A stretch of 10,696 nucleotides of DNA, from assembly GCA_025351985.1 (NCBI GenBank), contig JANXUW010000532.1, positions 1-10,696 of the forward strand, in the 5' to 3' direction. This document shows, piece by piece, positions 2,776-10,696 of the stretch. The notes beneath the pieces are model-generated. The model was not told the origin of the DNA and made no database searches. It saw nothing but the letters and a program-made list of their open reading frames with translations. Position 1 is the first letter of the stretch. Each line of letters starts with the position of its first letter. The translations under genes were made by a program, and so were the position numbers. The DNA is from Pseudolysobacter sp. Lineage in GTDB: Bacteria > Pseudomonadota > Gammaproteobacteria > Xanthomonadales > Rhodanobacteraceae.

Positions 2776-2833
2776 GTGGCGCGCATGATAACGTCCGCGG
2801 GCGAAGGCTTCCAGTAAAACCATAGCGCTGCGC

Positions 2834-2862
2834 TTCCTAGCTGCGCGCAGGCTCGCTATAAT
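2834..2862 (+). promoter_or_regulatory. Probable sigma70 promoter of the cytochrome c gene
   Basis: A perfect -10 hexamer TATAAT lies at 2857-2862. At 17-bp spacing the -35 position is TTCCTA (2834-2839), a weak match. The predicted start near 2869 leaves a leader of about 55 nt before the GTG start codon. Confidence 0.6.
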
Positions 2863-2924
2863 CAGCAGTCTTTGTGTGCAATGAATGGCCGACCCGGCCC
2901 CGATGCAACAGCCAAGGTATCTCC

Positions 2925-3455
2925 GTGAGCAACCCCGTAAGCAAGACCGACCTGCAATTCCTCAAGCATTTCTCAATGATCATCGGCTTTCTCGTGCTGG
3001 TCACCGCCGCACTGATGGCGGTGGCGGCGTATCTCTACACCTTGCATCCGCCGCCGCAGAATCCGCTGCACGCGCAGCAGGTGGAATCGCGCATCACACC
3101 GATCGGCGACGCTTACGCCGGCGATACCGGTCGCGCCGCGAAACTCGCCGCCGAGCAGGCCGCGCAGAAAGCCGCTGCGGCACAAGTGGCGTACGGCGGT
3201 ACGACCGATGGCAAGACCATCTTCGGCAACCTGTGCCACAGCTGCCACGAAACCGGTGTCGCCGGCGCTCCGATGTTGACCGACAAGGCCAACTGGGCGC
3301 CGCGTGTGGCGCAGGGTCTCGATACCTTGGTCTCGCATGCGATCAACGGTTACAACGGCAAGGCCGGTGCGATGCCTGCGCGCGGTGGCAATCCGTCGTT
3401 GAACGATGCGCAGGTGAAAGCTACCGTCGAGTGGATGTTGACCCAGGTCAAATGA
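2925..3455 (+). CDS. Membrane-anchored cytochrome c5-family protein
   Basis: Monohaem electron carrier, probably tethered to the periplasmic face of the inner membrane. In the 176-residue product, residues 15-38 form an uncleaved-looking transmembrane anchor. An alanine-rich linker (about 65-88) follows, then a C-terminal c-type domain with the haem attachment motif C104-H-S-C107-H108; M150 in GAMPARGG is the likely sixth ligand. The domain resembles cytochrome c5 (short class I, ending in VEWMLTQVK). The GTG at 2925 is chosen because AAGG (2914-2917) sits 7 nt upstream and translation then begins just before the membrane segment. The same frame is open to 2874 but lacks a ribosome site there. 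The gene has its own promoter and a hairpin terminator and converges on acpH. The electron-transfer partner is not evident from context. Confidence 0.9.
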   Translation: MSNPVSKTDLQFLKHFSMIIGFLVLVTAALMAVAAYLYTLHPPPQNPLHAQQVESRITPIGDAYAGDTGRAAKLAAEQAAQKAAAAQVAYGGTTDGKTIFGNLCHSCHETGVAGAPMLTDKANWAPRVAQGLDTLVSHAINGYNGKAGAMPARGGNPSLNDAQVKATVEWMLTQVK

Positions 3456-3492
3456 CACGCTCGGCCGCGATCTGAATTGCTATCGACAACTG

Positions 3493-3519
3493 CGCCGCCT
3501 TCGGGCGGCGTAGTTATTT
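3493..3519 (+). terminator. Hairpin terminator after the cytochrome c gene
   Basis: A 7-bp GC stem CGCCGCC/GGCGGCG (3493-3499 and 3504-3510) closes a TTCG tetraloop and is followed by TAGTTATTTC, a moderately T-rich tail. It lies between two convergent genes. The opposite strand lacks a good U tract, so it mainly serves the plus-strand cytochrome gene. Confidence 0.75.
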
Positions 3520-4133
3520 CAGGACTGCGGATTCGCCGATTCTAGTTGCAACAGACGCACTCGCTCGCCCGCGGCGAACTGCATCAGGATCGGAAAAAAT
3601 ACGGCGAACAATTCGCTCAGCGGCGTGGCGAGGGCAAACAGCGGCGCGGCACTTTCAGCGAGCGGATTGGCATGCTTCAGCCGATATCCGATACCGCGCA
3701 GCACATCGACGATCACTTGCGGATCGGCGTACGCGGCGAATCCATCATGCGTATCGATGTAGCGAACAAAGCGCCGCATCGGCAACGGCATCTGCGCTTG
3801 CGACTCGCGCAACAGTGACATCATCCGCGCCGAAAATGTTGCAAGCGGCTGATCGCTGTAACGCGAAAAATCGCGCGCCAGCAGATGATCGAAATACACG
3901 TCGAGCAGGATGCCGGCATAACGCCGCTGCGGCGGCACGAACAACGCGCGCGCTTTGACCAGCAGCGCATGCGCATCGGTAAATGTATCGATATGCCGAT
4001 GCAGCATCACACCCGCGCGCAAGCCCGGCGACCATGCTGCGTCCGGCGCGCCGCGCCAGAAATCTCCGAGCACGCCACCGAGTTGCAGCTGCGGATCGGG
4101 GCCGGCCAGTAGCGTGTGAGCGAGATAATTCAT
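3519..4133 (-). CDS. acpH: Acyl carrier protein phosphodiesterase (AcpH)
   Basis: Cytosolic hydrolase that removes the 4'-phosphopantetheine arm from holo-acyl carrier protein, giving apo-ACP. The 204-residue product matches the family in length (E. coli AcpH is about 193 residues) and in its motifs: MNYLAH at the N-terminus, GxxLGDFxRG at about 20-28 (D24), LHRHIDxFTD at 44-53 and LDVYFDHLLARDF at 77-89. These His/Asp clusters are typical of the family's metal-binding, HD-like fold. The ATG at 4133 gives the canonical N-terminus; no clear Shine-Dalgarno precedes it. The gene is divergent from the alpha/beta hydrolase with only 56 bp between starts, and convergent with the cytochrome gene. 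It is probably a single-gene transcript. Confidence 0.92.
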   Translation of the reverse strand: MNYLAHTLLAGPDPQLQLGGVLGDFWRGAPDAAWSPGLRAGVMLHRHIDTFTDAHALLVKARALFVPPQRRYAGILLDVYFDHLLARDFSRYSDQPLATFSARMMSLLRESQAQMPLPMRRFVRYIDTHDGFAAYADPQVIVDVLRGIGYRLKHANPLAESAAPLFALATPLSELFAVFFPILMQFAAGERVRLLQLESANPQS

Positions 4134-4174
4134 GTTCGGAATCGCGATCGGTGCGCGGGAAGTGTCGGCCCGGT

Positions 4175-4180
4175 TATTAT
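4175..4180 (+). promoter_or_regulatory. Possible -10 element for the hydrolase-zapE pair
   Basis: TATTAT lies 9 bp before the ATG at 4190. There is no convincing -35 at the usual distance (TGCGCG at 4152-4157). If used, transcription would start at about the start codon, giving a nearly leaderless mRNA. Confidence 0.3.
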
Positions 4181-4189
4181 GCGCGGTCT

Positions 4190-4888
4190 ATGAATATCCC
4201 ATCGAACCCGCTTCCCATGGATTTCCCCGCCACCGCCAGCACCTTGCTGCTGCCCGGGCCAGCCGGTCTGATCGAAATCGCCACCGACATGTCACCCCCG
4301 GAACTCGCGCGCGCCGGCACCGCGCTGATCTGCCATCCACATCCGCTGCAAGGCGGCACGATGCACAACAAGGTCGTGACGACGCTGGAAAAAACCCTGC
4401 GCGAACTCGGCTTGGCGACCGTGCGATTCAATTTTCGCGGCGTCGGCGCATCCACCGGCGAGTTCGATAACGGCATCGGCGAAAGCGATGACGTGCATGC
4501 GATCGCTGCGTGGATTCGCCAGGTGCATGCGGGCGATGCGCTATGGCTCGCGGGGTTTTCGTTCGGCAGTTATGTCGCTTTGCGCACCGCGGCGGCACTC
4601 GATGTCGCGCAGCTGATAACTGTGGCGCCGCCGGCCGGGCGCTGGGATTTTGCCGCGATCACGTTGCCGGAATGTGCGTGGCTGGTGATCCAGGGCGAGG
4701 CGGACGAAGTCGTCGATCCGAACGCGGTGTTCGCGTGGCTCGCATCGTTGCCATCGCCTCCGACTCTTGTGCGCATGCCCGAGACAGGACATTTTTTCCA
4801 TCGCCGCCTGCTCGATCTGCGCACCGCGATCCAGCAGGGCGTGCACGCGCCACTGCCGCCACTGCGTTCTGCCGGCACGGCCGTTTAG
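4190..4888 (+). CDS. Alpha/beta-fold hydrolase, COG2945-like
   Basis: Predicted cytosolic serine hydrolase of unknown substrate, 232 residues. The family hallmark HPHPLQGGTMHNKVV is at 49-63, followed by RFNFRGVGxSTG at 79-90. The nucleophile elbow is G-F-S124-F-G, the likely acid is D172 or D176 in GEADEVVD, and the catalytic His is H201 in TGHFFH. Together these complete a Ser-Asp-His triad. The ATG at 4190 follows a possible -10 directly and has no ribosome site; an in-frame ATG at 4217 is the alternative. It is followed after 10 bp by zapE on the same strand, so the two are likely co-transcribed. The family is widespread and poorly characterised, so no specific reaction is proposed. Confidence 0.88.
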   Translation: MNIPSNPLPMDFPATASTLLLPGPAGLIEIATDMSPPELARAGTALICHPHPLQGGTMHNKVVTTLEKTLRELGLATVRFNFRGVGASTGEFDNGIGESDDVHAIAAWIRQVHAGDALWLAGFSFGSYVALRTAAALDVAQLITVAPPAGRWDFAAITLPECAWLVIQGEADEVVDPNAVFAWLASLPSPPTLVRMPETGHFFHRRLLDLRTAIQQGVHAPLPPLRSAGTAV

Positions 4889-4898
4889 CCGTCCAGAC

Positions 4899-6035
4899 AT
4901 GAGATTGGATCCAGCAAAAAAAACTTCGCCAGCATCCGGCGAATCGAGCGATGCACCGAGCGCGGTCTATCAACGCGGCGTTGCAGAAAAACGTTGGGAC
5001 GACGATCCGGCGCAGCGCGAAATCCTCGCACATTTCGATCGTATTCGGCGCGAACTGATCGCGCGCAGCCAAGCCGGCTGGCTGCAGAAACTTGGCGCGC
5101 GCCTCGGTCGCGACACGCCGGTGCGCGGCCTGTATCTGTGGGGCAGCGTGGGGCGCGGCAAGACATTCCTGATGGATCTGTTTTACGACAGCGTGCCGGG
5201 CGAGCAGAAATTGCGCCTGCATTTCCATCGCTTCATGGCGCGTGTGCAGGATGAATTGCGCCAGCTCGAAGGTCGCCAGGATCCGCTCAAGGATGTCGCC
5301 GCACATTTCGCGTCACAAGCCCGCGTGCTGTGTCTCGACGAATTTTTCGTCAGCGATATCGCCGATGCGATGATCCTCGGTGGCCTGCTGCGATATCTGT
5401 TTGCCGATGGCGTGACCGTGGTCACGACCTCGAATATTCTGCCCGCACAGTTGTACAAGGAAGGCCTGCAGCGCGAACGTTTTCTGCCCGCGATAAAGTT
5501 GATCGAGCAGAACTGCGAAATCGTGCAAACCTTGTCGCCAAACGATTATCGACTGCGTGTGCTGAATCAGGCGCGGGTGTACTACACGCCGCTGAGTGCG
5601 GATGCCGAACGCGCGCTGGCGTTGTGTTTCACGCGGCTCGCCACCGGCGCGCGCAAAGCCGATCACGGGATCACGATTCACGATCGCAGCATCCCGATCC
5701 GGCAACTGGCCGACGAAGTGATCTGGTTCGAGTTCGATGCATTGTGCGACGGTCCGCGTTCGGTCGCCGACTACATCGAGATTGCGCGGAGTTTCCACAG
5801 CGTGCTGATTTCCGGCGTGCCGCAATTCACTCCGATGACGGAAAATCAGGCGCGCCGTTTTGTCGATCTGGTCGACGAATTCTACGACCGCAACGTCAAG
5901 CTGATACTTTCCGCCAGCGTGCCCGTGATCGACCTCTACGAAGGCCAGCGCCTGCGCGCCGAATTCGCGCGCACCGAAAGCCGCCTGATCGAAATGCAAT
6001 CGCAGGATTATCTCGCGCGCGAACACCGCGGTTGA
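4899..6035 (+). CDS. zapE: Cell division ATPase ZapE (AFG1 family)
   Basis: P-loop ATPase that in E. coli associates with the FtsZ ring and affects its stability; eukaryotic relatives are the mitochondrial AFG1/LACE1 proteins. The 378-residue product carries Walker A GSVGRGKT at 82-89, preceded by the family's RGLYLWG segment, and Walker B LCLDEF at 144-149. The sensor-like TTSN is at 176-179 and is followed by LPAQLYKEGLQRERFLPAI, a ZapE signature. The C-terminal ARTESRLIEMQSQDYL is also typical. The ATG at 4899 lies 10 bp after the hydrolase stop with no clear Shine-Dalgarno, so translation may be coupled. It is followed by an AT-richer accessory block on the opposite strand. Confidence 0.95.
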   Translation: MRLDPAKKTSPASGESSDAPSAVYQRGVAEKRWDDDPAQREILAHFDRIRRELIARSQAGWLQKLGARLGRDTPVRGLYLWGSVGRGKTFLMDLFYDSVPGEQKLRLHFHRFMARVQDELRQLEGRQDPLKDVAAHFASQARVLCLDEFFVSDIADAMILGGLLRYLFADGVTVVTTSNILPAQLYKEGLQRERFLPAIKLIEQNCEIVQTLSPNDYRLRVLNQARVYYTPLSADAERALALCFTRLATGARKADHGITIHDRSIPIRQLADEVIWFEFDALCDGPRSVADYIEIARSFHSVLISGVPQFTPMTENQARRFVDLVDEFYDRNVKLILSASVPVIDLYEGQRLRAEFARTESRLIEMQSQDYLAREHRG

Positions 6036-6206
6036 GTTTCGCTTCAACGGACTTCCGAAGGCACATTGTTGGCGTTGCCAATTCTTATGCCAAAACTCTG
6101 GTGGTTCGCCTCGGAATTCGAAAGCTATTCCAGCGCGACGAGTACCTGTCCGCGCTCAAACGAGCATTCTCCGCCAAAAGCAGAAGTCGCATTAAACACA
6201 TATTCC
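6036..6206. other. Junction between zapE and the accessory operon
   Basis: This is the convergent 3'-3' space between zapE and the minus-strand operon and the likely left boundary of the accessory block. No strong terminator, tRNA or flanking direct repeat is recognisable. One minus-strand frame stays open from 6313 to 6125 but is not accepted as a gene. Confidence 0.4.
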
Positions 6207-7019
6207 CTATCGATCTGGTTCGGGCTGAACAAAAGAAACAGGCGCCCCTCCGTAACTGCGGTGGTCGACGCGCCATGATTTCGCACTAAGTGCCAATGCG
6301 TGAGGAAACTCATCTTCTGAAATTTCGTCGCAAGAAAGTAGGTTGATGCGTTCCCAGTTTCCCGTCACTTTGTCGCAAAACGCGTTTTTGAATATCTCGG
6401 AGAGCTCATGGGCAAAGGCTTTAGCCTCGTCATCATCTGTACTCCGAGGATATACGACATATATCGCGAGTTCGTAGGGATCATCGCTATCGCTCCGTTC
6501 GATCATTTGATTGTCATCAAGATCGAAATAGAGCGCTCGTATTCCATGACCGTGCTTATCAGACAGACGATCGATTTTCTCCTGGACTTTTCCACGCATA
6601 CACTCCTCGAATGCGTTTGGAAACGCGGATCGCCCGTAGCGACCAGCTAGCCATCGTTGGAACACTCTCAAACTAGTTCGATCCAACTGATGTGAGTATT
6701 TCTCGGCTTCGCTTAGAAATTTTGGCTTTGTCAATGAATCGCGAGTACGAATGTCGAATTCCACGCTTACGGGGTCATTCCCGTCGATATAAATAGTTGC
6801 GTGCAAGCGCCGAGGGTTCTTGCCCAGAGTCAGACTTCCTTCTTGTGCCCTTACTAAAGACCCCTGTAAAATTTCTACTATCGGCTCGACATCATCTTCC
6901 GCACAAATATCGCAATCGTGAGAGGCAATGACGCCAAGCAGTGCGAGCCGCCCTTCCTTAGCAGGGATTGTGAAAATATCCCCTTGTCGCCAAGTGACAT
7001 TTCTATTCTCGCTTGGCAT
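6207..7019 (-). CDS. Uncharacterised protein with S-H-D-C-D motif, third gene of the cassette
   Basis: Soluble 270-residue protein with no signal peptide or membrane segment. The N-terminal part reads WRQGDIF (10-16) and then a beta-strand running into IASHDCDIC (31-39). The His-Asp-Cys-Asp cluster in a hydrophobic setting could bind metal or be catalytic, but that is inference. The middle holds RWLAGRYGR (122-130) and a long charged helical stretch; the C-terminus has AKSWRVDHRS (246-255). The ATG at 7019 has AGGG about 6 nt upstream and lies 8 bp after the HTH gene's stop, so the two are co-transcribed and probably coupled. I do not recognise a named family with confidence. As the last gene of a regulator-containing cassette it may be the effector, unproven. 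Codon use is less GC-biased than in zapE or nrdA, suggesting transfer. Confidence 0.8.
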   Translation of the reverse strand: MPSENRNVTWRQGDIFTIPAKEGRLALLGVIASHDCDICAEDDVEPIVEILQGSLVRAQEGSLTLGKNPRRLHATIYIDGNDPVSVEFDIRTRDSLTKPKFLSEAEKYSHQLDRTSLRVFQRWLAGRYGRSAFPNAFEECMRGKVQEKIDRLSDKHGHGIRALYFDLDDNQMIERSDSDDPYELAIYVVYPRSTDDDEAKAFAHELSEIFKNAFCDKVTGNWERINLLSCDEISEDEFPHALALSAKSWRVDHRSYGGAPVSFVQPEPDR

Positions 7020-7027
7020 CCGCGCCC

Positions 7028-7594
7028 TTAGCCGATATGGTCCGCGTCAAAATCAGCGAGCGTACCCTTGGCCCGCTTCGTTGCAATGCGGGATGCAACT
7101 AGGGCGCGCTGATCTATTCGCTGACGATAAGTTGAAGCCACTTGCTGCGCAAGAGTCTCAGCATCCTCGCCCTCCTTAACCAGCTGCCAGAAATTTCTCG
7201 ACGAAACCATAGGCTGAATAAGAATAGAGCGCTTAGCCAGATTCTTGGTCGACAGCACAACATATGCACGCGAAAAGGAGTCCAATGCTATTTGGTGTAC
7301 CGCATTAGGAAGGAGCTCACCTTTTAGCCAGTTATAGAGTGTCTGCCGCGAAACTTGCATTGCCTGTGCAAGACCAGCAACTGATACTTCTAAGCCTTCG
7401 AGAATCTTTCGAATCTGCACTCGCACCGACATGTTTCGTGACGATTCTACGATGCGTATACACGGCGGTAGGTAACCGATCTTGTCAGGGTGAGACACGC
7501 CCCCGGTACCAGCCAACACGACGCCCGCCCAAAAGCCTGCCACCATAACGCTCGACGCACTTCGAATTTTAGAATTGAATACTAGCATTGCCAT
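7028..7594 (-). CDS. Helix-turn-helix protein with hydrophobic N-terminus, second gene of the cassette
   Basis: Predicted DNA-binding protein of 188 residues. Residues 1-12 are basic, 13-31 are strongly hydrophobic (VMVAGFWAGVVLAGTGG) and may be a membrane anchor or signal. Residues 69-93 are a clear HTH (SVAGLAQAMQVSRQTLYNWLKGE). The C-terminal half is helical with FWQLVKEGEDAETLAQQV (135-152). The ATG at 7594 is chosen because GGGA at 7604-7601 is 6 nt upstream and it begins 2 bp after the preceding stop. A TTG at 7606 (overlapping) or the internal ATG before SVRVQIRKILEG (about residue 55, removing the hydrophobic part) are alternatives. It probably represses its own operon through the palindrome at 8433-8461. 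Xre/Cro-like antitoxins have similar HTH domains, but no family assignment is firm. Confidence 0.8.
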   Translation of the reverse strand: MAMLVFNSKIRSASSVMVAGFWAGVVLAGTGGVSHPDKIGYLPPCIRIVESSRNMSVRVQIRKILEGLEVSVAGLAQAMQVSRQTLYNWLKGELLPNAVHQIALDSFSRAYVVLSTKNLAKRSILIQPMVSSRNFWQLVKEGEDAETLAQQVASTYRQRIDQRALVASRIATKRAKGTLADFDADHIG

Positions 7595-7596
7595 TT

Positions 7597-8406
7597 TTAT
7601 TCCCAATCCGCAAGAGCGGCTTCAGTTACCACTGCCTTAAATGAATCACTAATATCCTGCTTTAACCTTGACAGTCGGTCAAGAATAGCGTCCATGCGGA
7701 ATTCTTGTGCTTTCTCTTCGCTTACTGCGAACGAAGCATCCGAATCCAATAGAGCATGGATACCTTTGATTTCCGAAAACCGTGCTGGCAGCGACGGAGC
7801 TATTGACGCAAGATCCGGCGGCATCGCAAGTGCAGATGACCGAGTAATGACTCGCACCTTGGTCTGCTGGTCCCCACGACTGAGAAGCGTTTCTGAAAAC
7901 GTATAATTTGCAAGCCAGTCGCCATCCAAAGTATCTTGCAGCCCTAAAAACTGGGTTCGGATATACCGCGATAACTCTCCTTCAGCAGGCGGCTTCACTG
8001 CATCCAGAAACCGCAGACCAATTCGCGTAAAGGAGTCTGGAATCAGAATATCTTGTACAGCGCGAATACATGTCGCGAACATCTCTTTGAAGACGTCAAT
8101 TGTATCGTACTCGACCGTCTGCAAGAAAAAGTTGTCTGGACTGATTACGAATGATTCGGAGTGGTCTCGTTTCGAAAAAAAATGACTGGTGAATTCCATT
8201 TGCTCAATCTTCGAATTGAGCATCGCATCCGTGTCATCTTCTACTCGAAATGATACCCGGTTCTGCTTCTGCGCTCGGTAGCCCGGAAATCCTTCCTTGC
8301 GAAGGCGCTCTTGCAGATCGGGTATGAGACTGTCCAACTTAAGAATAGGACTATGAGTTACTTGCGCGACCACGCAGAAAACTGATGCATTTTTAAGCTT
8401 GCCCAT
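7597..8406 (-). CDS. TIGR04255-family protein, first gene of the cassette
   Basis: Soluble 269-residue protein that I recognise as resembling the sporadically distributed TIGR04255 family of unknown function. Family-like features are MGKLKNASVF at the start, PILKLDSLIPDLQERLRKEGFPGY (20-43), the core IGLRFLDAV (129-137), GIHALLDSD (215-223) and a C-terminal FKAVVTEAALADWE. No catalytic motif is apparent. The ATG at 8406 is preferred over an in-frame ATG at 8424 because a GGGGG run (8416-8412) sits 5 nt upstream and the N-terminus then matches the family's MGKLKNA start. The gene ends 2 bp before the HTH gene and follows the palindrome at 8433-8461. The family is scattered among bacteria, which fits horizontal transfer. 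A defence-related role is a guess from its patchy spread and company. Confidence 0.82.
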   Translation of the reverse strand: MGKLKNASVFCVVAQVTHSPILKLDSLIPDLQERLRKEGFPGYRAQKQNRVSFRVEDDTDAMLNSKIEQMEFTSHFFSKRDHSESFVISPDNFFLQTVEYDTIDVFKEMFATCIRAVQDILIPDSFTRIGLRFLDAVKPPAEGELSRYIRTQFLGLQDTLDGDWLANYTFSETLLSRGDQQTKVRVITRSSALAMPPDLASIAPSLPARFSEIKGIHALLDSDASFAVSEEKAQEFRMDAILDRLSRLKQDISDSFKAVVTEAALADWE

Positions 8407-8432
8407 ACAAACCCCCAAACCCATAACTTAAC

Positions 8433-8461
8433 AGTGTCAACTTTACACTTTAGTTGACACT
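8433..8461. promoter_or_regulatory. Inverted-repeat operator candidate of the three-gene cassette
   Basis: A perfect inverted repeat, AGTGTCAACT (8433-8442) and AGTTGACACT (8452-8461), separated by 9 bp. Each arm contains a consensus -35 hexamer TTGACA, one per strand, pointing outward. It lies 27 bp upstream of the first start codon. The dyad, its size and its place fit a dimeric HTH repressor, most simply the cassette's own. No good -10 is found at 17 bp in either direction, so the promoter itself is unresolved. Confidence 0.65.
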
Positions 8462-8574
8462 TTTGGTAGAGATGAAGTTCCGTATCGATTCAGATGTGAA
8501 GCAGGCTGACCACAATGGTATACGCGGAGCAAGCATCGCTTGTTGGTACCTTGCTCGACAACGACGCTACCAAA
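8462..8574. other. Gene-free spacer between accessory operon and nrdA regulatory region
   Basis: No supported gene, repeat or RNA is seen. It joins the AT-richer cassette to the nrdA control region and presumably contains the right boundary of the inserted block. Confidence 0.4.
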
Positions 8575-8590
8575 ACACAACATATTGTGT
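8575..8590. promoter_or_regulatory. NrdR box
   Basis: ACACAACATATTGTGT is a near-palindrome that agrees closely with the NrdR consensus (acaCwAtATaTwGtgt). NrdR is an ATP-cone/zinc-ribbon repressor of ribonucleotide reductase genes. The box abuts and overlaps the first base of the -35 hexamer at 8590, so bound NrdR would block RNA polymerase. NrdR sites usually come as pairs two or three helical turns apart; I find no convincing second box, only a poor match near 8596-8611. Confidence 0.75.
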
Positions 8591-8618
8591 TGACCCGGCA
8601 ACTAGATCAGTCTATCTT
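8590..8618 (+). promoter_or_regulatory. Sigma70-type promoter of nrdA
   Basis: TTGACC (8590-8595) and TATCTT (8613-8618) are separated by exactly 17 bp. The predicted start, near 8625, coincides with the first strand of the riboswitch P1 helix, which supports this promoter as the source of the riboswitch leader. Confidence 0.7.
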
Positions 8619-8624
8619 GCGTTC

Positions 8625-8804
8625 GTCGGTGTTCGGGCTTGCTCGAACTGAAATGGGAATCCGGTGCGATACCGGAGCTGCCCCGCAGCGGTAAACGGAA
8701 ACGAAACTCGTCATTGGCACTGGCCCTCCGCGGCTGGGAAGCGACGAGCAGTAGGTGGATCGGTACACGCCGGTTCGAGTCCGCAAGCCCGAAGACCTGC
8801 CGAC
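8625..8804 (+). ncRNA. Cobalamin (B12) riboswitch aptamer
   Basis: The conserved parts of the cobalamin riboswitch appear in order. P1 pairs GTCGGT (8625-8630) with GCCGAC (8799-8804). A long helix pairs GGGCTTG and CTCGAAC (8634-8647) with GTTCGAG and CAAGCCC (8773-8790). The core then contains GGGAATCCGGTGCGATACCGG, GCTGCCCCGCAGCGGTAAACGG (about 8653-8700) and the B12 box AAGCCCGAAGACCTGCCGA (8785-8803). The gene downstream is a class I ribonucleotide reductase. That pairing is known in other bacteria (for example nrdABS of Streptomyces coelicolor), where B12 lowers class I expression while a B12-dependent class II enzyme serves. The ligand subtype (adenosyl or aquo/methyl) cannot be told by eye. 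Confidence 0.95.
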
Positions 8805-9027
8805 ACCCGCGCCCACGCACCCGGCGCGGTTTCGGCCCGAAACTTCCGCGGGGAAGTGGCCGCTGATTGCCACGCCCCCTGACGCGTGGTGTTCGGCCGT
8901 CTATTCCGCAGCAGTGAACAACGCCCGAGGGGGCGTGGGCTACGACGTGGCGTGTCCGCCGCGTTGCCCCTCATGGCGTCCGCGCGCGGGAGCGGCGCCA
9001 AGTGCATCCAAACCAGAGGATGAGCAC
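8805..9027 (+). promoter_or_regulatory. Structured nrdA leader / riboswitch expression platform
   Basis: A 223-nt leader separates the aptamer from nrdA. It contains hairpins GTTTCG/CGAAAC (8829-8834, 8838-8843) and CTTCC/GGAAG (8843-8847, 8852-8856). CCACGC at 8870-8875 can pair locally with GCGTGG (8884-8889). As part of an 11-bp arm (8870-8880), it can instead pair with AGGGGGCGTGG (8928-8938). Another hairpin, GGCG-CCGC/GCGG-CGCC with a one-base bulge, lies at 8975-8999 just before the Shine-Dalgarno AGAGG (9015-9019). No U-rich terminator tail is seen, so control by translation or Rho seems likelier than by intrinsic termination. Confidence 0.5.
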
Positions 9028-10696
9028 ATGTCGACTACCGAAATTCTTTCCGCAGCGATCGCACCCGCGGCGGCGACCACCGAATCCAACATGCCGGCGG
9101 CGGCGACCACCGCCAGCAACGCGCACTTACAAACCTTGCTCAGCGAAAATGCCGCGCCGAACTCATCGGCACCAGGCAATATTTCCGTGACTGCGAATCA
9201 CAGCAGCACGACATCGAACAGCGGCGACTTTGCGCTGACGCCGCCGCACTCGCCAACCACAATGCGCGTGACCAAACGCAACGGCCGCGAAGAGCCGGTC
9301 GATCTGAACAAAATCGTGCGCGCAGTGACACGCTGTTGCGAAGGCCTGAACGACGTCGATCCGATGCGCGTCGCACTCAAGACCATCTCGGGTCTGTACG
9401 ATCACGCCAGCACGCGCGAGCTCGATCAACTGTCGATTCGCACGGCAGCAGAATTGACGATGGAAGAACCCGAATACGCGCGACTCGCCGCGCGCCTGCT
9501 CGGCGGCTACATCGACAAGGAAGTGGCCGGACAGGAAATCCATTCGTTCTCGCAGTCGATCAGCAGCGGCCATCGCCTCGGCCTGATCGGCGAGCGTCTG
9601 CTCGGATTCGTGCAGACGCATGCACGCAAACTCAACGATGCGATCGACGTGCGCGAGACGCGCCGTTTCGAATATTTCGGTCTGCGCACGGTGTACGACC
9701 GCTACCTGCTGAAACATCCGGCGCAGCGCACGGTGATCGAGACGCCACAGTATTTTTTCATGCGCATCGCGTGCGCGCTGTCGGAAACCGTGACCGATGC
9801 GCTTGAGCTGTATCGGTTGTTCGCCGCACTGGACTATCTGCCGAGTTCGCCGACCTTGTTCAACGCCGGCACCACGCATGAACAGTTGTCGTCGTGTTTC
9901 CTGCTCGACTCGCCGGAAGATTCTCTCGAGGCGATCTACAAACGCTACGGTGATGTCGCGATGTTGTCGAAATTTTCCGGCGGCATCGGCCTGGCGTATT
10001 CGCGCATCCGCAGTCGCGGCGCCTTGATCCGCTCCACCAACGGCCATTCCAACGGCATCGTGCCGTGGCTCAAAACACTCGATGCGTCGGTCGCCGCGGT
10101 CAACCAGGGCGGCAAGCGCAAGGGGGCATGTTGCGTGTATCTGGAAACCTGGCACGCCGATGTCGAGGAGTTTCTCGAATTGCGCGACAACACCGGCGAC
10201 GATGCGCAACGCACGCACAATCTCAATCTCGCCAACTGGGTGCCGGATCTGTTCATGGCGCGCGTCGAACGTGATGAAGAATGGTCGCTGTTCGATCCGC
10301 ACGACGTGCCGCAATTGGTCGATTTGTGGGGCGAGGATTTCGAGCGCGCGTATATCGCTGCGGAAAACGCCGGACTCGCACGCAAACGCATCAAGGCACG
10401 CGAACTTTATTCGCGCATGATGCGCAGCCTCGCGCAGACCGGCACCGGCTGGATGACGTTCAAGGACAAGTCGAATCGCGCCTGCAATCAGACAGCGCTG
10501 CCCGGCAACGTCGTGCATCTGTCGAATCTCTGCACGGAAATTCTCGAAGTCAGTTCGGCTGGCGAAACCGCGGTGTGCAATCTCGGTTCGATCAATCTTG
10601 CGCAGCACATCAGCGACGGCGCCTTCGATTTCGCCAAGCTCGCGCAGACCGTGCGCGTGGCAGTGCGCCAGCTCGATCGCGTGATCGACCTGAACT
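9028..10696 (+). CDS. nrdA: Class I ribonucleoside-diphosphate reductase large subunit (NrdA), 3'-truncated by window edge
   Basis: Catalytic alpha subunit that reduces ribonucleotides to deoxyribonucleotides in the cytosol, working with a radical-generating NrdB not in the window. The 556 visible residues start at ATG 9028, with AGAGG 8 nt upstream. Residues 1-78 are an unusual Ala/Thr/Ser/Asn-rich extension with a 10-residue repeat. An ATP-cone regulatory domain follows (79 to about 165, MRVTKRNGREEPVDL), then the barrel. Active-site residues are present: C290 in LSSCFL and C517 in AVCNLGS (the redox pair), and N500/C502/E504 in SNLCTEI (substrate and thiyl-radical residues). The C-terminal tail with its cysteines is beyond the edge. 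Regulation is by the upstream NrdR box and B12 riboswitch. Class I rather than class II is inferred from the N-x-C-x-E context and the riboswitch logic. Confidence 0.95.
   Translation, partial: MSTTEILSAAIAPAAATTESNMPAAATTASNAHLQTLLSENAAPNSSAPGNISVTANHSSTTSNSGDFALTPPHSPTTMRVTKRNGREEPVDLNKIVRAVTRCCEGLNDVDPMRVALKTISGLYDHASTRELDQLSIRTAAELTMEEPEYARLAARLLGGYIDKEVAGQEIHSFSQSISSGHRLGLIGERLLGFVQTHARKLNDAIDVRETRRFEYFGLRTVYDRYLLKHPAQRTVIETPQYFFMRIACALSETVTDALELYRLFAALDYLPSSPTLFNAGTTHEQLSSCFLLDSPEDSLEAIYKRYGDVAMLSKFSGGIGLAYSRIRSRGALIRSTNGHSNGIVPWLKTLDASVAAVNQGGKRKGACCVYLETWHADVEEFLELRDNTGDDAQRTHNLNLANWVPDLFMARVERDEEWSLFDPHDVPQLVDLWGEDFERAYIAAENAGLARKRIKARELYSRMMRSLAQTGTGWMTFKDKSNRACNQTALPGNVVHLSNLCTEILEVSSAGETAVCNLGSINLAQHISDGAFDFAKLAQTVRVAVRQLDRVIDLN
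9067..9112 (+). repeat. Direct repeat inside the nrdA N-terminal extension
   Basis: The 16-mer GCGGCGGCGACCACCG occurs at 9067-9082 and again at 9097-9112, a 30-bp period. It encodes the repeated decapeptide-like units AAATTESNMP and AAATTASNAH. The repeat keeps the frame, consistent with slippage expansion in a disordered, weakly constrained extension. Confidence 0.8.

Follow-up and report, generated by a model that had tools for sequence, protein, structure and literature searches.

The window, i.e. the whole 10,696-nt stretch of Pseudolysobacter sp. DNA that was analysed, contains three minus-strand ORFs whose gaps of 2 and 8 bp, as given in the initial annotation, agree with the translation starts taken from family alignments. 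The genes and features of the locus are the following:

7597..8406, minus strand: gene 1, TIGR04255 family protein (the ORF opens at 8424; conserved start MGKLKN at 8406)
7028..7594, minus strand: gene 2, HTH protein (the ORF opens at TTG 7606; conserved ATG, MAMLV, at 7594)
6207..7019, minus strand: gene 3, S-H-D-C-D protein of 270 aa, presumed toxin/effector
8433..8461, minus strand: predicted operator, AGTGTCAACT / AGTTGACACT arms with a 9-nt spacer (identical arms in the Dyella locus L002)
7499..7549, minus strand: hydrophobic N-terminal segment of gene 2, with GTGG at its end
7307..7414, minus strand: HTH region of gene 2, residues 65-100, including VSRQTLYNWLKG (from the family consensus; Pfam HTH_3 below cut-off)
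6627..7004, minus strand: predicted MazF/CcdB-fold domain of gene 3, residues 6-131
6909..6923, minus strand: S-H-D-C-D motif of gene 3, residues 33-37
6031..8573, no strand: inserted block including its edges, missing in a same-genus relative

The block had been described as AT-richer than both flanks, and its GC content is indeed 48.8% (6207-8461) versus 61.5% (2787-6030) and 61.3% (8574-10696). Beyond the trio, a cobalamin riboswitch is detected on the plus strand (8610-8818, 115 bits). The trio sits between an ORF labelled zapE and this riboswitch, which lies ahead of an ORF labelled nrdA (labels of the initial annotation).

Insertion and mobility of the block

When synteny was checked in close relatives, the block proved to be missing from a genome of the same genus (G274, locus L154), in which the window's flanks match at the DNA level with about 90% identity (89.5% for 2787-6030 and 90.3% for 8574-10696). 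The two flank matches are separated by 193 nt in that genome versus 2,543 nt in the window; no target-site duplication was seen at the block edges, which were inspected by eye. Gene 3 is present in 2 of the 31 genomes searched, namely the window's own and G275. In the latter, the ORFs around gene 3 read, by eye, as a second complete trio, and this stretch displays no DNA similarity to the window.

Genes flanking the trio elsewhere hardly recur, the largest cluster among 271 flank ORFs having 3 members, 2 of which come from one locus. Pfam searches of 130 of the 223 larger flank ORFs, run on the flank ORFs alone, identified 5 integrases and 2 each of IS66, TniB, HipA and RES proteins; the ORF caller is greedy, and such neighbour counts therefore include some false ORFs.

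The three genes are inherited as one unit

A scan with the gene-3 alignment, covering one genome per species for 84,980 species, yielded 79 loci, and the same scan retrieved 5 loci from IMG/VR and 7 from plasmids. One of the IMG/VR loci (L081) gives the same match values as L003. Using profiles built for this analysis, all three genes were recovered in 85 of the 91 loci retrieved with gene 3 alone (81 of 87 once four near-duplicates are removed) and on 7 of 7 plasmids, so that the co-occurrence check found the genes adjacent almost everywhere gene 3 occurs. Three of the incomplete loci run into the edge of their contig (L047, L057 and L083); among the other three, L041 and L085 lack both partners and L053 lacks TIGR04255 only. 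Inter-gene gaps are short across loci, with medians of 0 and 9 nt. The view of the trio as a self-contained mobile system is thus well supported, both by this adjacency and by the same-genus genome from which the block is missing.

Hosts of the trio belong to the Pseudomonadota, Acidobacteriota, Deinococcota, Cyanobacteriota, Myxococcota, Bacteroidota, Verrucomicrobiota and Thermodesulfobacteriota, and the trio is additionally found in one actinobacterial bin (L071). Phylum labels scatter on the gene-3 tree (8 changes for Pseudomonadota versus a shuffled mean of 8.6), a pattern that bins or paralogues can also cause. Protein distance matrices of the three genes are correlated with r of 0.905-0.919 over 71 loci (permutation maximum 0.16); L081, L089, L087, L054, L013, L053, L057, L071 and short ORFs were left out of these comparisons. 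In two cases, TIGR04255 and the second protein are fused into one ORF (L013, and L116 with a truncated TIGR04255). Globally, the computed evidence shows a trio that is inherited together under a conserved promoter-operator and is missing from one close relative.

A putative direct-repeat operator overlapping the predicted promoter

The palindrome AGTGTCAACT-9-AGTTGACACT at 8433-8461 has perfect arms, of a length reached in 0 of 40 dinucleotide shuffles of the upstream stretch, and recurs with identical arms in a non-syntenic Dyella locus (L002). The operator-like perfect palindrome of the initial annotation therefore exists, but it is a variant of a putative direct-repeat operator: across loci, the wider unit reads TGTMAA in the coding strand and recurs after 12 and 7 nt, which also yields distances of 19 and 31 nt. 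These four spacings account for 205 of 236 unit pairs (TGT[ACT]AA). Of 79 upstream regions, 65 carry the form GTGT[AC]AA in coding orientation, usually 30-90 nt ahead of the gene, compared with 6 in the opposite orientation, a mean of 2.8 (maximum 9) in mononucleotide shuffles and a mean of 2.6 (maximum 8) in random windows of the same loci; the unit was chosen after viewing the loci, and the excess is still over twentyfold. The 79 regions exclude the near-duplicates L081, L089, L087 and L054, the fusion L013 and loci short of upstream DNA. Of the 14 regions without GTGT[AC]AA, 11 carry the shorter TGT[AC]AA near the start.

Anchoring 67 loci on unit 2 revealed a loose -35 element (first three places T, T and G in 52, 34 and 32 of 67 loci, respectively), a 17-nt spacer, and then TAAACT or TAAAGT inside unit 2. 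In the window, units 1 and 2 lie 12 nt apart in the direction of the genes, the presumed -10 (TAAAGT, at about 8440-8445) falls within unit 2, and the -35 position (TACCAA) is a poor match. Unit 1 thus falls between the -35 and -10 elements and unit 2 covers the latter, a layout suggestive of a repressor site. GTGTMAA was found in 0 of 21 TIGR04255 loci classed as lacking the trio (the shorter TGTMAA in 3 of 21), a class that includes one decayed trio (L117) and some guessed starts. Among trio loci of the same TIGR04255 sample it is present in 3 of 8, the rest being mostly diverged or of uncertain start (L093). An operator search in viral contigs found none.

The three proteins

Gene 1 was rightly assigned to the TIGR04255 family: it scores 120.2 bits against the NCBIfam model (cut-off 30) and covers model positions 1-252 of 252. 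The model description assigns no function to the family, and the names TIGR04255 and DUF6933 were not found in the literature searched, a scope outside which most subscription papers and all bioRxiv preprints fall. The structure model of gene 1 (pLDDT 92.6, pTM 0.89) has weak fold matches only, and SecB is absent from the 50 fold matches listed. Comparison with 19 SecB proteins by hhalign gave a probability of 0.3%, indicating that TIGR04255 is not SecB-like by sequence.

In the 92 loci examined, 89 ORFs homologous to gene 2, counting that of the window, lie upstream of gene 3. The HTH label is clear in the family alignment, in which the core GVSRQ..Y.W..G shows the strong conservation that a conserved operator would lead one to expect; conversely, domain matches of the single sequence are all weak and under cut-offs (best Pfam E 0.002; HTH_3 E 0.0037). 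PADLOC returned three weak matches over the HTH region, the best being mad1 (21.5 bits). Ahead of the HTH lies a hydrophobic stretch that often ends in GTGG (GTGG in 52 of 89). At one common threshold, a hydrophobic N-terminal segment is present in 54 of 81 HTH proteins versus 2 of 79 TIGR04255 and 13 of 82 gene-3 proteins, and it beats its own shuffles at 0.04 in only 21 of 81 HTH proteins. GTGG-like residues persist in several of the 27 HTH proteins below the threshold.

Gene 3, initially described as an unrecognised soluble protein, has no Pfam match at E<=1, nothing above an NCBIfam cut-off and no PADLOC match; the best hint is a PHROG of unknown function (21 bits). The homologue search retrieved 40 proteins, the window's own included. 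The S-H-D-C-D motif that had given the protein its name is confirmed at residues 33-37; across 113 aligned sequences, D35, C36 and D37 do not vary and the conservation of H34 is at least 90%. The family's own invariant set comprises D35, C36, D37, E49, R70, W123, R127, Y128 and R130. A fold search with the gene-3 structure model (pLDDT 87.9, pTM 0.70) points to a predicted MazF/CcdB fold for residues 6-131, while the C-terminal half is hardly covered. Compared by hhalign with 21 PemK proteins (rows L178 and L186 left out), the N-terminal half of gene 3 reached a probability of 0.3%, and there is no PF02452 match. The catalytic residues of MazF/PemK are Arg and Thr; the catalytic Arg of MazF is not conserved in the gene-3/PemK alignment, which is of low confidence.

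Other operons of the TIGR04255 family

Roughly 5-10% of the genomes sampled contain TIGR04255 (28 of 274, 30 of 398 and 19 of 385). Its surroundings were read for 78 fetched loci, third genes being sorted into classes by eye except where a profile is named. HTH and gene-3-family partners accompany it in 14 loci, two of them diverged (L233 and L248; hhalign 97%, E 9.2e-11), and in three more the HTH protein is present and the third gene is either cut or decayed (L117, L219 and L234). Nine loci encode a shorter third protein with QGD, which has a C-D motif in all save L109, where the Cys of the shorter family is lacking; hhalign gave 88% for L120/L239 and 67% for the pooled short group. A true PemK/MazF is the third gene of one locus (L208/L253; 67.9 bits), in a tight TIGR04255-95 aa-MazF operon, and a PIN domain protein that of another (35.8 bits). 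The third genes of L110 and L224 appear HEPN-like by eye, with no Pfam support, and DUF6933 lies 529 nt downstream in L105, which is weak evidence. A different operon type, with WDGY- and NPAH-like partners by eye, accounts for 28 loci, and 19 loci are without assignable partner.

The hydrophobic N-terminus first noticed in the HTH protein recurs in many second proteins of TIGR04255 operons and is absent from others. In the 14 loci that lack the HTH and have a toxin-like or cousin third gene, 8 unfused second proteins lie above the hydrophobicity threshold, those of L207 and of the MazF operon (L208) fall below it, and L222, L224 and L239 display no second protein. The second protein of L116, fused to the truncated TIGR04255, is 79% identical to that of L109. 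Overall, 8 of 10 hand-picked second proteins other than the HTH proteins carry the segment. The second protein of L218 has an AGTFG motif resembling that of HTH proteins such as the L008 one.

Phage and defence context

A tblastn search of 50,697 phage records gave no match. With this result and 5 loci in IMG/VR, an origin of the trio as phage cargo was rejected. With genes 1 and 3, PADLOC searches found no match at E<=1; 8 proteins encoded by cousin operons likewise had no PADLOC match. As to a neighbourhood near known defence genes, 66 PADLOC models were matched at E<=1e-15 in 130 of the 223 flank ORFs versus 6 in 110 control ORFs, an excess that is only suggestive because the models look redundant (in the best 25 of 66, one protein is given per model and many look like alternatives for the same protein) and because the control ORFs, from 20 regions in 10 genomes that share the window's class, were not chosen to match the trio hosts. 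A toxin-antitoxin or defence function had been considered plausible from the outset; the former has gained support from the predicted MazF/CcdB fold and from the MazF and PIN third genes, whereas for the latter, still a candidate role, PADLOC gave no match to genes 1 and 3 and just short HTH matches for gene 2, and the neighbourhood is suggestive at most.

Proposed mechanism and alternative readings

TIGR04255 is constant, the second protein is often hydrophobic, and the third proteins are varied and include two known toxin families; we therefore argue for a toxin-antitoxin-type module. The chances that the block is a horizontally transferred three-gene module of this type appear to us about even. 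As in type II toxin-antitoxin loci, the gene of the HTH protein is adjacent, 8 bp upstream of gene 3, and the putative operator would overlap the promoter. The HTH protein would bind the TGTMAA repeats over the promoter and repress the operon, and might double as antitoxin of the S-H-D-C-D protein, which, given its predicted MazF/CcdB-fold domain, may be the toxic effector, with RNA cleavage as a first guess at its activity. TIGR04255 would be a dedicated chaperone-like helper that must hold the hydrophobic, signal-peptide-like N-terminus of the HTH protein; if it were drawn away or lost, the antitoxin would fail, the operon would be derepressed, the freed effector would act and growth would stop, as in toxin-antitoxin-chaperone systems with the helper being unrelated. 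More tentatively, TIGR04255 could be the hub of an unrecognised, SecB-independent class of tripartite toxin systems, in which it would grip a labile second protein by an N-terminal bait resembling a signal peptide and so silence one of several interchangeable effectors (S-H-D-C-D MazF-fold, true MazF, PIN, perhaps HEPN-like), to be released when hydrophobic or phage proteins compete for the hub.

The constancy of TIGR04255 while second and third genes vary, and the two fusions joining it to the second protein, would also suit a TIGR04255 that is itself the antitoxin, a promiscuous neutralising domain facing varied toxins as in Panacea, with the HTH protein acting as operon repressor only. We find this rather unlikely, as most loci whose third gene is toxin-like retain a second gene, and second proteins without HTH are often hydrophobic at the N-terminus, a trait that a pure repressor would not need. 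The same module could have been selected for phage sensing, as an abortive infection system with TIGR04255 as sensor (compare CmdC in CmdTAC), and the 66 versus 6 PADLOC models, the nearby integrases and transposition genes, and the CmdTAC precedent (in the available part of PMC11618068) point this way; yet the redundancy of the models, the control drawn from the window's class, the lack of PADLOC matches for genes 1 and 3 and the cousin-operon proteins and of tblastn matches in the phage records weigh against it, a plain addiction module would look alike, and we hold this anti-phage role to be unlikely.

There is a slim chance that gene 3 is no toxin and that its MazF fold serves another task, for example as an enzyme with a metal site around H-D-C-D, encoded in a mobile operon for stress or metabolism that the HTH protein controls. 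The family's own invariant residues and the poorly covered C-terminal half would fit such a role; the true MazF and the PIN protein in third place of single other TIGR04255 operons argue against it. It is highly improbable that the HTH protein is a membrane-anchored regulator whose hydrophobic segment is a real transmembrane helix or signal peptide. Small residues do follow the core in 69 of 81 HTH proteins, versus 28 of 79 TIGR04255 and 45 of 82 gene-3 proteins, and the net charge before the core is positive in 42 of 81 and negative in 7, a feature that is not specific (positive in 56 of 79 TIGR04255 proteins). However, the positive-inside rule relates flanking charge to membrane topology, and under it this charge pattern would put the HTH outside the cytoplasm; moreover, a membrane anchor is hard to reconcile with the 27 of 81 members below the hydrophobicity threshold, several of them retaining GTGG-like residues.

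Relation to known systems

The tripartite systems found in the literature searched, as far as the sources were available, include SecB-type ones. In toxin-antitoxin-chaperone systems, the antitoxin has a tail prone to aggregation and is protected by a SecB-like chaperone, and in the ChAD study an N-terminal graft on luciferase or GFP also made solubility chaperone-dependent (available part of PMC5105189); the chaperone of CmdTAC is diverted by a phage capsid protein (likewise in part, PMC11618068). The present trio resembles these systems (HigBA-SecB type; CmdTAC) in its three genes, varied toxin families, antitoxin with a candidate aggregation-prone extension and possible guard protein. It differs in that the candidate extension is N-terminal, whereas the chaperone-addiction extension of TAC antitoxins is C-terminal, and in that the effector would be a new family with a predicted MazF/CcdB fold plus an extra domain. 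The helper, TIGR04255, is not SecB-like by sequence, and we therefore refuse membership of the TAC systems and keep them as a working analogy.

Panacea is a Pfam family, and its systems have two genes versus three here. As a hyperpromiscuous antitoxin domain (available part of PMC8832971), it shares with TIGR04255 the pattern of one constant protein and many effectors; it is not among the Pfam matches of the three proteins. If the proposed mechanism is true, the TIGR04255 family, whose operon context is supplied here, would acquire a function, a new family of effectors with a toxin fold would be named, and the logic of toxin-antitoxin-chaperone systems would have evolved with an unrelated helper. 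The operator common across phyla offers an immediate handle on the regulator. The MazF/PemK and CcdB toxins of type II systems share with gene 3 the predicted fold of residues 6-131; unlike them, gene 3 lacks a PF02452 match and detectable sequence homology, and it has different invariant residues, a further C-terminal region and a place in a three-gene operon. A further point in common is the one TIGR04255 operon that carries a true MazF.

Other operons and partners of TIGR04255

The TIGR04255 family, to which the first gene of the trio belongs, also heads a second, distinct type of operon, encountered in other genomes at loci L101, L104, L111-L115, L203, L212, L213, L215, L217, L225, L226, L228-L230, L235, L236, L238, L240, L241, L243-L245 and L249-L251. 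Sorted by eye, the second proteins of these operons frequently carry a WDGY motif, and NPAH is frequent in the third ones (~150 aa); none of the WDGY/NPAH proteins tested was matched in Pfam. Further arrangements and likely gene 3 relatives are as follows:

L013:8747-9991, apparent one-ORF fusion in which TIGR04255 is joined to the HTH portion of gene 2, lacking the GTGG that often ends the hydrophobic N-terminal stretch
L116, apparent one-ORF fusion (263 aa) joining a truncated TIGR04255 to a second protein that is not of the HTH type
L110:2744-3097, HEPN-like small protein (~120 aa) adjoining TIGR04255
L224:544-921, minus strand, HEPN-like small protein (~120 aa) adjoining TIGR04255
L207:2584-3162, L210, L222 and L252:1122-1820, shorter family with motifs QGD and LSN[ST]CD

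The two HEPN-like proteins are alike in appearance, and Pfam did not support the HEPN-like reading of either. The shorter family is likely related to gene 3; the three members tested matched no NCBIfam family and no Pfam family over the cut-off. At L117, TIGR04255 has decayed, with in-frame stops, and is adjoined by an HTH remnant.

Surroundings of the trio

7-2361, type I restriction HsdR-like ORF
2569-2645, tRNA-Arg
8610-8818, plus strand, cobalamin riboswitch (115 bits)

The match to L154, a same-genus stretch devoid of the trio, starts at 2787, leaving positions 1-2786 of the window unmatched; this segment, comprising the HsdR-like ORF and tRNA-Arg, may be another variable region, located next to a tRNA. 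The riboswitch and the trio promoter lie back to back.
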